Assembly: GCA_002170165.1 (NCBI GenBank)
Contig: NHFY01000094.1
Span: forward strand, 100,486 to 164,485
Length of the DNA stretch: 64,000 nucleotides
Origin: Flavobacteriales bacterium TMED123
GTDB taxonomy: Bacteria; Bacteroidota; Bacteroidia; Flavobacteriales; BACL11
Direction of reading: 5' to 3'
Shown: positions 18,052-23,080 of the stretch, piece by piece
Layout of the letters: the number at the start of each line of letters is the position of its first letter
Position numbering within the stretch: the first letter of the stretch is position 1
Made by a program: the position numbers and the translations under genes
The notes under the pieces: generated by a model
Database searches by the model: none
Told to the model about the DNA's origin: nothing
Seen by the model: the letters and a program-made list of their open reading frames with translations, nothing else

Positions 18052-20253
18052 TTAAAATCCTACAGTAAGCCCCACTAAATAGTTGCGAGTTGCTTCAGGA
18101 AAATAAGCTGCTTCATTGTAGCCTCTCTCACTATCAGCATTTACATATGCATTACTTTCTCTTGGATCTTCCCCATCATAAATAAAACGATATACCCAAG
18201 CATTACTTACATATTCATTGTTAAGTATATTGTTTACTTGCAAAGTCAGTTTTGCAACATCAAGCCAATTGTTTTTAATATCGTATGATAATCTTAAATT
18301 ATTGGTTAAATAATCGTCTAGCTTTCTATCGTCAGATGAGGTGTTGTCGATAAATTGCTCTCCAACATATTTAGAAATAAATTCAACATTCATTTTTTCC
18401 GACAATTTTAAGTTAAACTGAGATGCCCAAATTACAGAGGGAGAAAATGCCAAATCAGTATTTGTATGCTCTACTTTTTCTTGTCCCCAGGTATCCCAAT
18501 TGTCAATATACTCAGTAAAAGCAGCAACTTTATTTTGACTTAAAGTCATATTGGCTGCCCAATGCAATCTGTCACCCAATTTTATGGTTCCTTCCAATTC
18601 TACACCTCTTCTGAATGAATTGTCAATATTTGTACGCGTATAAGCGCCAACATCATTTATTTTTCCAGTTGGGGCCAATTGGTTCTTGTAATGCATAAGG
18701 TAGATGTTAGCTCCAAATGAAATCCAATCGTTCAAAAACTGATAGCCCATTTCTACATCATAAAGTGTTTCTTGCAAAGGACGAGAATTAGGGGAGCTTT
18801 CTACAAAGTCATTTCTGTTTGGTTCTCTATTACCAACTGCAACAGATGCATAAATTGCCTGATTGGCATTCAAGCTATTATGAATCCCTACTTTCGGATT
18901 AAAGAAATCTAAGTTTACACTTTGCTCAGCAGTATTTCCTTGCTCATCATTACCTAAAAATTCATACTTTACTTTTCTTTTCTGAAAATCGGCATACAAA
19001 TTGGTATTGTTAAAAAGCGCATAATCTATTTTTACATACAAATTATGATCAAATTTGGTAGCAATATTTCTGTAATATTCGTGCTCATAATTTCCATTGG
19101 ATGCATATTCAGCCCAAATTACATTGCCATAATGTTGTCCAGAATAACGATTGCTAGCTCCACCAAAAGTTAAATTGGCTTTATCCATTTTCTGATTTAA
19201 AGAAAAAACCACACCTCCAAAATCGTTATTCAACCATTTTCTTCTAATCAAGTCAGTAGAGGTAATGGTTTTATCTCCTATTACCACATTATTCAGTCCA
19301 TAATCTGCTAAATCTTCTCCAGCTTTAAATTGCTCATAATAACCCTCACCATGAGTGTAGTGTGCTGAAACATTTATATTGGTATTCTCCCTTGTTTTTT
19401 TGCTGTAGTGCAATTGGTAATGAGTTTGCCCATAATTATCAACCTCATTTTCATAATCGTAAGGATTGTAAGTTCTGTTGCTATCCAAATAATTTAGAGG
19501 AACTCCATACCAAGCTTGATAGGTTCGTTCCTTGCCAGAAAACATTACCGCCTTAAGCATTTCATTTGCCCCAAAATAACCTCCAGAAAGGTAGAAAGAT
19601 TTCAAATCAGAGCTAGCTTTATCCATATAACCATCAGAGGAAATTTGAGATAATCTGCCGTCAAATGCAAATTTTCCGCCAATGAGTCCTGTGCCGAATT
19701 CTGCATTATTTTTAAATGTGTTGAACGAGCCATAACTATTACTACTCCTTACATAAGGATTTTTATTTAATCCTGTTGTTTTCAAATTTACGGTTGCTCC
19801 AAATGCAGACGCTCCATTAGTAGAAGTTCCAACTCCTCTTTGGATTTGAATATTGTCCACAGAAGAAGCAAAATCGGGCATATTTACCCACCAAACCCCT
19901 TGGCTTTCCGAATCATTTAATGGAATGCCATTTACAGTAACATTGATTCTGGTTGGATCCGATCCTCTTACTCTAAATCCGGTATAACCAATTCCGGCTC
20001 CTGCATCAGAAGTAGTAACAACTGATGGAGTGAGGGAAATTAAATAAGGTAAATCTTGTCCAAGATTGCCTTTTTCAATTTCAGCTTCATTAATATTCGT
20101 AAATGCAACAGGCGTTTTTTCATTTGCCCTTAATGCATTTACATTTACTTCATCCAATACTTTATGTACAGAAACCGTATCGGAGTGCTGTTGAGCAAAT
20201 CCTATAAAAGGAATTGCAAGCAGAGCAGCCATGCACTTTTTCTTGTTAAACAT
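18052..20253 (-). CDS. TonB-dependent outer-membrane receptor, TPP-riboswitch controlled (probable thiamine importer)
   Basis: A protein of 733 residues. There is a signal peptide (ending in FIGFAQQ), a plug domain (about 45-160, with GFRVRGSDPTRINVTVNG and GTSTNGASAFGATVNLKT) and a 22-strand barrel that ends in LVGLTVGF. There is no carboxypeptidase-like domain. It resembles FecA-type receptors. A TPP riboswitch sits directly upstream in its leader, and a thiamine-binding protein, a PnuC-like permease and a kinase are upstream on the same strand. The likely cargo is thus thiamine or a thiamine phosphate (inference from regulation and context). Confidence 0.9.
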   Translation of the reverse strand: MFNKKKCMAALLAIPFIGFAQQHSDTVSVHKVLDEVNVNALRANEKTPVAFTNINEAEIEKGNLGQDLPYLISLTPSVVTTSDAGAGIGYTGFRVRGSDPTRINVTVNGIPLNDSESQGVWWVNMPDFASSVDNIQIQRGVGTSTNGASAFGATVNLKTTGLNKNPYVRSSNSYGSFNTFKNNAEFGTGLIGGKFAFDGRLSQISSDGYMDKASSDLKSFYLSGGYFGANEMLKAVMFSGKERTYQAWYGVPLNYLDSNRTYNPYDYENEVDNYGQTHYQLHYSKKTRENTNINVSAHYTHGEGYYEQFKAGEDLADYGLNNVVIGDKTITSTDLIRRKWLNNDFGGVVFSLNQKMDKANLTFGGASNRYSGQHYGNVIWAEYASNGNYEHEYYRNIATKFDHNLYVKIDYALFNNTNLYADFQKRKVKYEFLGNDEQGNTAEQSVNLDFFNPKVGIHNSLNANQAIYASVAVGNREPNRNDFVESSPNSRPLQETLYDVEMGYQFLNDWISFGANIYLMHYKNQLAPTGKINDVGAYTRTNIDNSFRRGVELEGTIKLGDRLHWAANMTLSQNKVAAFTEYIDNWDTWGQEKVEHTNTDLAFSPSVIWASQFNLKLSEKMNVEFISKYVGEQFIDNTSSDDRKLDDYLTNNLRLSYDIKNNWLDVAKLTLQVNNILNNEYVSNAWVYRFIYDGEDPRESNAYVNADSERGYNEAAYFPEATRNYLVGLTVGF

Positions 20254-20318
20254 TGCTTTAATTTTTTAGTTAACATTTACACGCATAATGGGGTTAATGC
20301 ATGCTTATTTAATGAAAA

Positions 20319-20391
20319 CTCATTTCCCTAGGATGAATTACCACCTCAGGTTCAATGGGTATAATCTCAGCCTTACGGCACCCCTTTTAAG
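20319..20391 (-). ncRNA. TPP (THI-box) riboswitch in the leader of the TonB receptor gene
   Basis: Read on the minus strand, the conserved parts follow in order: GGGGTGCC, a minimal P3 (GCC-GTAA-GGC), CTGAGA, ATACCC pairing with GGGGT, TTGAACCTGA, P5 (GGTG / CATC around GTAATT) and TAGGGAA. P1 can form between CTTA (20391-20388) and TGAG (20322-20319). This matches the thiM/thiC consensus closely. The start codon is 66 bases downstream. An ACCCC (20397-20393) upstream and an AACCCCA in the leader downstream (20295-20289) could each pair with the GGGGT of P2 and act in switching (inference). Confidence 0.95.
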
Positions 20392-20416
20392 ATGGGGTAA
20401 AATTATAAAAAAGTAG

Positions 20417-20935
20417 TTAGTTAGGCGTTCTCAGTTGATAGATTTTTTCAATTATAGTTTCCAATCTTCGTTTTCCTTCTACAACATAATAATCATGTCT
20501 CAAATTTTCTAATTCTTTTTTGTAAATCTCAAAAAGTTCACCTCTATTATGTGGGTTTTCTCTTAAAGGATCTATCTCCCAAGGAATATCGGGTTTGCAC
20601 AACAAATAAAATCGCTTTTCTTTTTTGTTTTTTTCAATTTGTTCTAAAATCCAATTGTCGCAATTTCCGTATTTATATTCACTCCAAATTTTAATGGTGA
20701 TTAAATCCGTATCATGTAGATATAGTTGCTGATTGTTAGTTATTAGCTGTTCGGTTTGCAATTGTCCTTTTGCAATTACTAATAAATCATCTTGTGTATA
20801 ATAGCCATCATCTAATTTATTAAGAAATTCTCTGGAAAATTCTGCTGTAAAAGGTATATTAAAATTTTCAGCTAGTGAATTACAAAGGGTTGTTTTTCCG
20901 CTACTCTCAGGTCCTGTTACAATTACTTTAAGCAT
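20417..20935 (-). CDS. NadR-type P-loop kinase, candidate thiamine-salvage kinase
   Basis: A protein of 172 residues. The P-loop GPESSGKTT is at 8-16, and the lid region CKPDIPWEIDPLREN is typical of the ribosylnicotinamide-kinase domain of NadR. There is no adenylyltransferase domain and no DNA-binding domain. It overlaps the PnuC-like gene by 8 bp. PnuC/NadR pairs trap vitamins by phosphorylation after import. Here the vitamin is more likely thiamine, because a TPP riboswitch and a thiamine-binding protein flank the pair. The alternative is nicotinamide riboside kinase. The fold is sure, the substrate is not. Confidence 0.8.
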   Translation of the reverse strand: MLKVIVTGPESSGKTTLCNSLAENFNIPFTAEFSREFLNKLDDGYYTQDDLLVIAKGQLQTEQLITNNQQLYLHDTDLITIKIWSEYKYGNCDNWILEQIEKNKKEKRFYLLCKPDIPWEIDPLRENPHNRGELFEIYKKELENLRHDYYVVEGKRRLETIIEKIYQLRTPN

Positions 20936-21488
20936 TAGGTTTCAGCTTCTTCAGCCAAGCAAAATAACCAAATACAGCAATGATGGTATAGGCAATAAAT
21001 AAAAGTCCAGTTTGTTCCAATTCCCTGCTGTGGTAAAGATAAACGGAAACGGCATCAATTACTATCCAGTAAATCCAGTTTTCAAGCACTTTCTTAGCCA
21101 CCATATAAGTGGCAAACAAGCTAAATACAGTAGTAAAAGAATCCACTAATGGCATTGCTGCATCTGTGTAAGTGCTAAAGTAAAAGCCCATCAAAAAAGT
21201 TAAAAAAGCTCCACTAATGAAAATCATAATATGTTTTTGTAAACGCCATTCCGTTACTGATAAAGTGTTGTCGGCTGTTTTTTTACGCCAATTCCACATC
21301 CCATAAAACGCCATGATTAAATAAAAGATTTGTAAGGCTGTTTCTGGATATAATTTAGCATTGTAGCAAATATAAATATAAAGGGTAACACTTACAGCAG
21401 CTGCTGGCCAACACCAATTGTTTTCCTTAGCTGCTAATATAACATACAAGAGGCTAAAAATAACAGCTATGCTTTCCATAGTAAACAT
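20928..21488 (-). CDS. PnuC-family vitamin permease, probably PnuT (thiamine)
   Basis: A protein of 186 residues with about seven membrane segments and the PnuC-family pattern around YGMWNWRKK and a late WIVIDAVSVYLYHSR. PnuC-type carriers move a non-phosphorylated vitamin down its gradient and depend on a cytosolic kinase for trapping; the overlapping downstream gene encodes one. PnuT variants for thiamine are known beside TPP riboswitches in Bacteroidota. The start at 21488 directly abuts the stop of the thiamine-binding-protein gene (TAAATG). Confidence 0.85.
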   Translation of the reverse strand: MFTMESIAVIFSLLYVILAAKENNWCWPAAAVSVTLYIYICYNAKLYPETALQIFYLIMAFYGMWNWRKKTADNTLSVTEWRLQKHIMIFISGAFLTFLMGFYFSTYTDAAMPLVDSFTTVFSLFATYMVAKKVLENWIYWIVIDAVSVYLYHSRELEQTGLLFIAYTIIAVFGYFAWLKKLKPNA

Positions 21489-21749
21489 TTAGAAGTTGGG
21501 TTTTTCTTCCAAATTACTGTTCATTACTTTTAATGTAAAAACCACTTTATCCTCAGAAAGAAAAATGTTTTCCATTTCCTTATTTATGGCATTCATTACT
21601 CTTATGTAATCCCCAAAAACTTGTGTGCTCATTCCGTTTGTATTCACCTTAATAAAAGGGTGTTTTCTTAAATTTTTGATAAACTGAATGATTGAAGGTT
21701 TGTAGTCTTTATTGAGCGGATACATTGATATTTCTACAGAACAGTCCAT
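21489..21749 (-). CDS. Thiamine-binding protein, MTH1187/YkoF (DUF77) family
   Basis: A protein of 86 residues with the family's SVEISMYPL start and the TNGMSTQVFGDYIRVM core. The MTH1187/YkoF fold is ferredoxin-like and binds thiamine or its pyrimidine part. It has no signal peptide, so it acts in the cytosol. It is flanked with zero spacing by the GGGP synthase and PnuC-like genes, so it is translated as part of one transcript. It strengthens the reading of the locus as thiamine salvage. Confidence 0.82.
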   Translation of the reverse strand: MDCSVEISMYPLNKDYKPSIIQFIKNLRKHPFIKVNTNGMSTQVFGDYIRVMNAINKEMENIFLSEDKVVFTLKVMNSNLEEKPNF

Positions 21750-22487
21750 TTATAAAGAATGCACAGCATTTGCGATTTCTGCAATTAAGTTTTCATCTTT
21801 CTCAATCGCATTGCCAACTACTACAATGTCAGCTCCTGCTTTGCAATTGGCAATTGCTTTTTTGCCATTAATAATTCCTCCACCTATTATTAAAGGCGCA
21901 TCAACAGATTTGCTAACAGCAGTAATCATCTGCTCTGAAATGGGTTTTTTGGCTCCACTCCCGCCATCCATAAAAATGAGTTGTAGCCCAAGCATTTCTC
22001 CAGCCATAGCTGTGCAAGCCGCTACGGCATCTTTATCAGAAGGAATAGGAGTGGTATTACTCATATAGGAAACTGTTGTTGGTTTTCCGCTATCAATAAG
22101 CATATAGCCAGTTGGCAATACTTCCAAAGAAGATTGCTTTAATATAGGAGCAGTAATTACTTGTTTGCCAATGAGCATTTCTGCATTTCTTCCAGAAATT
22201 AACGATAAAAACAAAATAGCATCAGCTTTTTCATTCACTTGCATGGCATTTCCAGGAAATAGAATTACTGGAATATTAGCATGTGCTTTTAATGTCTTGA
22301 GGCAAGCATCTAAACTATCATGCGTGAGTAAAGATCCGCCAACAAAAAAGTAATCTGTTTTTGCTTTTTCTGCCTTTTTAATTATTGAAATGAGTTGTTT
22401 TTCATCTTGCTTATCCGGATCAATCAATAGGGCAAACGATTTTTTATTGGCTTTTTTATTTTCTATAATGTTGTTGTAAATATTCAT
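21750..22487 (-). CDS. Geranylgeranylglyceryl / heptaprenylglyceryl phosphate synthase family protein (PcrB-like)
   Basis: About 245 residues from ATG at 22487; an ATG at 22508 would add 7 residues and overlap the upstream gene by 10 bp. It has the TIM-barrel signatures SFALLIDPDK near the start, DYFFVGGS, the glycine loop FMDGGSGAKKPI and the phosphate-binding IIGGGIINGKKA. The enzyme joins a polyprenyl diphosphate to glycerol-1-phosphate, the first step to archaeal-type ether lipids. Bacteroidota homologues are known; the end product in these bacteria is unclear. No archaeal G1P dehydrogenase is seen in the window. Confidence 0.92.
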   Translation of the reverse strand: MNIYNNIIENKKANKKSFALLIDPDKQDEKQLISIIKKAEKAKTDYFFVGGSLLTHDSLDACLKTLKAHANIPVILFPGNAMQVNEKADAILFLSLISGRNAEMLIGKQVITAPILKQSSLEVLPTGYMLIDSGKPTTVSYMSNTTPIPSDKDAVAACTAMAGEMLGLQLIFMDGGSGAKKPISEQMITAVSKSVDAPLIIGGGIINGKKAIANCKAGADIVVVGNAIEKDENLIAEIANAVHSL

Positions 22488-22498
22488 AAGCAATTTTT

Positions 22499-23080
22499 CT
22501 ATTTGCAAACATACACTAAATAGTGATTATTTATTTTCCGATAGTTTAACTTTAATTGTTCCTGCTTAAAATTTGCAGCAATTTCCCCTTTTTCAGAAAG
22601 AACAAAAGGAGTTAAACAGATGTCTTTTTTAAAATCAACTCCTCCTTTTTGATGCCATTTGAAGATGGCTTCTTTACAGCACCAAATTAAAGTGGCTTTT
22701 TCTAGAGTTAGCTTTTGATGATTGTCTTTTGCAATGAATCTTGATGAAAGGCGTAAAGCTTTTTCACTTATTTGCTCAATATCTAGCCCCACTTTTTTAT
22801 CACTTACAATAATAACAACTAAATTTTTTGAGTGCGAAATAGAAACAAAGTTTCCATCTGATAATGTTGTCGCGCCATACTTATTATAAATAATGGATGT
22901 GTTTGGATGAATTTTTTCAAGCAATAATCTGCTTGCTAAAAATTCTTTTTTTCTTTTTTCCCTTTTAAGTCTCGACAAGTCGTATTGCTCAGACAAATTT
23001 TTGAGCTCATCTAAGGACTCGCACACATCCCAAATTGCAATAGTGCAATTATTTTCTTCTATTTTCTCGATGATTCCCAT
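22499..23080 (-). CDS. 4'-phosphopantetheinyl transferase superfamily protein
   Basis: A protein of 193 residues with the Sfp-type motifs: SISHSKNLV (about 80-88), the Mg2+-binding VGLDIEQI and [10 protein letters not shown]. It moves the phosphopantetheine arm of CoA to a carrier-protein serine, activating acyl or peptidyl carrier proteins. The size suits the compact AcpS/Sfp hybrids of Bacteroidota. It is the first gene of the minus-strand run and starts 65 bp from ahcY, which is divergent. Whether it serves ACP of fatty-acid synthesis or an unlinked pathway cannot be told. Confidence 0.9.

Follow-up and report, generated by a model that had tools for sequence, protein, structure and literature searches.

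Our analysis suggests that a group of genes in the window, as we call the whole 64,000-nucleotide stretch of DNA that was analysed, very probably constitutes a thiamine salvage system and that its P-loop kinase is a thiamine kinase, forming TMP from thiamine, which was recruited from the NadR kinase family. This agrees with the initial annotation, which had proposed that a NadR-like kinase phosphorylates thiamine and has thus changed its substrate within the family. The predicted activity is supported by the distribution of thiamine genes, as the kinase is present in genomes where the step from thiamine to TMP would otherwise be open, both ThiE and TPK being missing.

Organization of the locus and its riboswitch

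The initial annotation had described a TPP riboswitch, a DUF77 protein and a PnuC-family permease surrounding the kinase. All four elements were found, each of them on the minus strand and two of them, riboswitch and DUF77, with scores under the family thresholds (Table 1), but the riboswitch heads a receptor gene and not the kinase cluster, and this TonB-dependent receptor, which follows the riboswitch, was missing from the earlier list.

Table 1. Features of the proposed thiamine locus in the window
Feature	Position	Strand	Supporting match
4'-phosphopantetheinyl transferase (PPTase)	22499..23080	-	PF01648, E 3e-7
Geranylgeranylglyceryl/heptaprenylglyceryl phosphate synthase (GGGPS)	21750..22508	-	NF003198, 289 bits over cut-off
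DUF77 / MTH1187-YkoF-type protein	21489..21749	-	PF01910, 22.9 bits (cut-off 24.9); PF07615, 19.7 bits
PnuC-family permease, proposed PnuT	20928..21488	-	PF04973, E 2e-54, 184.7 bits
Stand-alone P-loop kinase of the NadR-RNK family (172 aa); proposed thiamine kinase	20417..20935	-	PF13521, E 7e-27
TPP riboswitch aptamer	20308..20395	-	RF00059, 48.2 bits, E 1.2e-8
TonB-dependent receptor, proposed outer-membrane thiamine receptor	18052..20253	-	PF00593 and PF07715

The direction of transcription runs from the PPTase through GGGPS, DUF77, permease, kinase and riboswitch to the TonB receptor. The first five are clustered with the PPTase in first and the kinase in last place, and as adjoining genes overlap or abut (the permease gene and the start of the kinase share 8 bases) they look like a single transcription unit with the kinase at its end. 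The riboswitch is placed directly 3' of the kinase and about 55 bases 5' of the receptor start codon, and the receptor is therefore taken as its direct target.

GGGPS and PPTase, which lie ahead of the thiamine genes (21750-23080), have no evident metabolic tie to thiamine and are not thought to be part of the mechanism. GGGPS is a conserved neighbour, lying near 45 of the 86 stand-alone kinases in the order. PPTase and kinase are separate genes of one cluster in the window, whereas in four genomes of one genus the PPTase is fused to the N-terminus of the kinase (L048:1482-2687, L057:4420-5637, L079:5050-6303 and L081:1232-2461).

A scan of the whole window with Rfam at the gathering score missed the riboswitch because its score lies below the gathering score of 54.3 bits; the full-length match to RF00059 was obtained by a local scan of 321 bases. 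Relatives of the locus score 56–74 bits with RF00059 and thus exceed the gathering score in the subset of loci that was checked with Rfam's own model. In addition, a riboswitch model (R1) was built from 15 riboswitch elements of these loci and matches the window at 20303-20398 with 95 bits; the window sequence itself contributed to R1, whose members match by construction, and Rfam's own model serves as the independent check on a subset of loci. The pair of riboswitch and receptor recurs in dozens of relatives. By eye, most loci of the family also have in common a short AACCC(C) stretch 3' of the aptamer (window minus strand, about 20255-20290), which could pair with the GGGG of the aptamer and thus represent a possible expression platform.

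A stand-alone kinase of the NadR type

The kinase is a member of the Pfam family AAA_28 (95 bits). In NCBIfam it matches best to the NadR profile TIGR01526 (E 7e-21; 74.7 bits, the cut-off being 341), of which only the kinase half, positions 164-319, is covered; the NMNAT domain is absent and there is no HTH. Its AlphaFold2 model (pLDDT 95) matches the RNK domain of NadR (8x7f) with a Z of 22.2 and an rmsd of 1.9 over 170 residues, followed by thymidylate and deoxynucleoside kinases with a Z of 15–16. The window protein is an RNK-type kinase and not a NadR. The TPK catalytic domain (PF04263) is absent from its Pfam matches, and neither TIGR02721 nor an APH-type domain is present among its Pfam and NCBIfam matches.

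In addition to the Pfam domain and the fold, the kinase shares with the RNK domain of NadR (TIGR01526; PDB 1LW7, 6GYE, 8X7F) the Walker A sequence GPESSGKT, Glu32/Arg35, Asp75-Thr76, the lid motif Trp-x-x-Asp-x-x-Arg and a partner permease of the PnuC family. Unlike NadR, it stands without NMNAT and HTH, the NadR-specific TT..Y helix and DG-R lid are replaced, and it is found together with a TPP riboswitch, a proposed thiamine receptor and DUF77.

A comparison of the active site with NadR structures had been recommended by the initial annotation. A comparison of residues with NadR kinase domains revealed that the NadR-invariant Thr-Thr-x-x-Tyr helix residues are replaced in the stand-alone kinases. 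In the Bacteroidota NadR kinase domains of our set, Thr80 and Thr81 of the helix after Asp75 are invariant, Tyr84 of this helix is present in 11 of 12 and the lid mostly contains Gly123. The stand-alone kinases mostly carry Ile81, Trp84, Lys88 and Pro123 instead, and the window kinase departs from the NadR set (Thr80-Thr81, Tyr84, Gly123) by having Thr80-Ile81, Trp84 and Pro123. By analogy to nucleoside kinases, this helix presumably lines the substrate pocket. The residue signature is not universal, as the kinases of family f3 retain Tyr84.

In f3 genomes the kinase makes up the N-terminus of a longer protein with some 700 aa (L073:4969-7089, L059, L060, L068, L072, L074 and L089), the C-terminal 510 residues of which are DUF4301 in L073 (670 bits). 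The genomes concerned belong to genus g12 except for that of L059, which belongs to g61. Also seen were a decayed copy of the kinase, interrupted by four stops, in G131 (G131:C3:155391-155882) and a partial second copy adjoining the locus in G053 (L090:3443-3673).

A tree built from 97 kinase domains puts the window kinase in a clade of 71 rows (SH-aLRT 99) that contains no NadR. A position among NAD-linked kinases, which the initial annotation had named as evidence against a thiamine kinase, was thus not obtained. The kinases of f3, f2, f5 and f10 are placed outside this clade with weak support and have kept some NadR-like residues. When all 79 kinases with a thiamine context were constrained to group together, the resulting tree was 10.7 log units better than that of the free search (AU p 0.63), so that a single origin of these kinases is not rejected; their monophyly as a whole is neither shown nor rejected by the trees. 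Family f51 contains stand-alone RNK-type kinases (L196-L200) which lie outside the thiamine clade and have no pnu gene, NMNAT or TPP riboswitch nearby.

Gene neighbourhood and distribution of the kinase

Relatives of the kinase were searched for in 148 genomes of the order and found in 93 of them. Among 86 stand-alone kinase loci, a pnu gene is nearby in 67, a related TonB receptor in 57, a TPP riboswitch in 57 and DUF77 in 37, all of these counts being lower bounds since some loci had little flank; 83 kinases are near at least one of the four and 3 near none.

True NadR genes, in which NMNAT and RNK are joined, are near a pnu gene in 10 of 12 cases. Adjacency to pnu alone therefore cannot separate thiamine from nicotinamide riboside and was dropped as discriminating evidence. 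The riboswitch does separate them, as it is near none of the 12 NadR loci, and riboswitch association and phyletic pattern were used as discriminators instead.

A thiamine context limited to this genome would, according to the initial annotation, have spoken against its proposal. The context is in fact shared by other genomes throughout the order, by further orders of the class and by Gammaproteobacteria. Among the kinases of these further orders, however, only 4 of 21 have a TPP riboswitch nearby. Gammaproteobacteria MAGs, including a SAR86 cluster bacterium and Pseudomonadales, contain the same parts in a different order and in another phylum, namely riboswitch, receptor, DUF77 and pnuT divergent from the kinase, with RF00059 over the gathering score in L157 and L176.

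The permease tree places the window permease in a branch which holds only kinase-linked permeases, and permeases cluster according to their partner gene (5 changes versus 12.5 in shuffles). The window permease is proposed to be the thiamine transporter PnuT. The DUF77 protein of the window stays slightly below the PF01910 cut-off, and 6 of 10 aligned relatives match Thiamine_BP at an E of 0.01 or better (best 3e-7); it probably binds thiamine or HMP.

Gene presence was read in the 148 genomes with profiles for TPK (PF04263), ThiL (TIGR01379), ThiE (TIGR00693), NadR (TIGR01526) and ThiK (TIGR02721); as the genomes are related, the association statistics are descriptive. Of 112 near-complete genomes of the order, 59 have the kinase only, 41 TPK only, 8 both and 4 neither. 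All 8 genomes with both belong to genus g12, the sole such genus, and the kinase therefore does not always replace TPK. Of the genomes with neither, one measures 0.3 Mb and the other three encode ThiE and ThiL. The exclusion persists when genera g12, g15 and g29 are left out (kinase only 59, TPK only 8, both 0, neither 4), and in other orders of the class 32 genomes with the kinase and 5 with TPK show no overlap, none having neither. In these orders a swap is seen within one family, f18, where G163 has TPK and the other genera have the kinase. An E. coli-type ThiK (TIGR02721) over the cut-off was found in none of the genomes of the order. Finally, in two genomes (L231 and L232) the operon consists of riboswitch, TonB receptor, pnuT and TPK, and in other loci the position behind pnuT is held by the kinase instead of TPK.

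The exclusion is accompanied by a gap in the pathway. Among near-complete genomes without ThiE and TPK the kinase is present in 53 of 54, the exception being a 0.3 Mb genome, and full-length ThiL is kept in 50 of these 53. With ThiE and TPK absent and ThiL kept, TMP must come from thiamine or from import; a thiamine kinase (EC 2.7.1.89) is expected to fill the thiamine-to-TMP gap in such genomes, and this is the pattern found. The genome from which the window originates (G000) is a MAG of 2.1 Mb that is 74% complete. It contains the kinase and, split into two halves that score below the family cut-off, a transketolase which would need TPP; profile searches of this 74% complete genome found no TPK and no ThiE. 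Full-length ThiL was not found in this incomplete MAG and is present in G053 and G099 of the same genus.

These patterns also bear on other readings of the locus. A stand-alone nicotinamide riboside kinase could serve nicotinamide riboside salvage together with a true PnuC, the thiamine riboswitch and receptor being adjacent by coincidence. The close relationship to the NadR RNK domain in sequence and fold and the pnuC genes adjoining true NadR genes would fit this view, but it would leave the TPK/ThiE gap open in 53 genomes and would account neither for the presence of TPP riboswitches at stand-alone kinases but at none of the 12 NadR loci, nor for the loss of NadR-invariant residues, nor for an operon slot that is also held by TPK. 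Moreover, the kinase is found in addition to a complete NadR in G143, G133 and G044, with NadR adjoining its own pnuC in G143 and G133. We therefore regard this explanation as improbable. In G277 and G192 (L204, L207 with L183, L185), a NadR-PnuC pair is accompanied by a separate, stand-alone kinase with no pnu gene adjoining it.

Still less probable is a pyrophosphokinase which, like TPK, makes TPP directly from thiamine. ThiL, kept in nearly all ThiE-less and TPK-less genomes, would then have no substrate, while 19 TPK-bearing reduced genomes do without full-length ThiL; the fold is that of nucleoside/nucleotide monokinases, although the kinase does stand in for TPK in phyletic pattern and operon position. 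That the substrate is a thiamine precursor (HMP or hydroxyethylthiazole) can hardly be entertained: DUF77/YkoF-type proteins of other bacteria have been connected with both HMP and thiamine, but 53 of the 59 near-complete genomes with the kinase only lack ThiE, and without this enzyme the phosphates of the precursors cannot be coupled to form TMP.

Proposed pathway and comparison with known systems

We infer that thiamine is the substrate of kinase, transporter and receptor and that TMP, not TPP, is the product of the kinase. The riboswitch-controlled TonB receptor would carry thiamine across the outer membrane and PnuT would equilibrate it across the inner membrane, facilitated diffusion being the mode reportedly used by PnuT. 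The NadR-family kinase, an RNK-type enzyme with changed substrate acting in place of TPK or an E. coli-type thiamine kinase, would then transfer a phosphate from ATP to thiamine and trap it as TMP, which the housekeeping ThiL would convert to thiamine pyrophosphate (TPP). Via the riboswitch, TPP would turn the receptor down. In the cytoplasm, DUF77 is a probable binder of thiamine or of its pyrimidine moiety and likely acts as a thiamine buffer.

ThiK/YcfN of E. coli has a fold of the aminoglycoside-phosphotransferase type. It would share the conversion of thiamine to TMP with the window kinase, yet both belong to different fold families. TPK (PF04263) takes the same place in metabolism, and also within the operon of L231 and L232, but is an unrelated protein which forms TPP in one step and almost never co-occurs with the kinase. 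Tnr3, the enzyme encoded by tnr3 in Bacteroides, is taken here as a member of the TPK family. Thiamine salvage of Bacteroides thetaiotaomicron involves OMthi and pnuT-tnr3, with Tnr3 named as thiamine pyrophosphorylase (PMC5613172). The OMthi-pnuT-tnr3 operon shares with the present locus the TonB receptor and, as predicted here, a TPP riboswitch, PnuT and a thiamine-phosphorylating enzyme, whereas the enzyme proposed here belongs to the NadR-type kinases, has no relationship to Tnr3 and would depend on ThiL.

Among the papers searched, none ties a NadR-type or COG3172 kinase to thiamine; an earlier prediction may exist. We consider it likely that the kinase represents a third, independently evolved thiamine kinase family, which serves most Flavobacteriales and many other Bacteroidota as their principal enzyme for activating thiamine, has several times changed places with TPK in one operon slot, and also occurs in marine Gammaproteobacteria with riboswitch, receptor and transporter genes.

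Annotation by sequence assigns these kinase genes to the AAA ATPases or to kinases of NAD metabolism, their genomes look unable to activate thiamine, and vitamin B1 salvage would thus be mis-scored in abundant marine and soil Bacteroidota. Correct assignment would close the route to TPP for dozens of thiamine auxotrophs. It would also provide a clean case of a kinase family in which the substrate has switched from one vitamin to another, and predicts that each PnuC-type carrier is paired with the kinase that traps the vitamin it transports.
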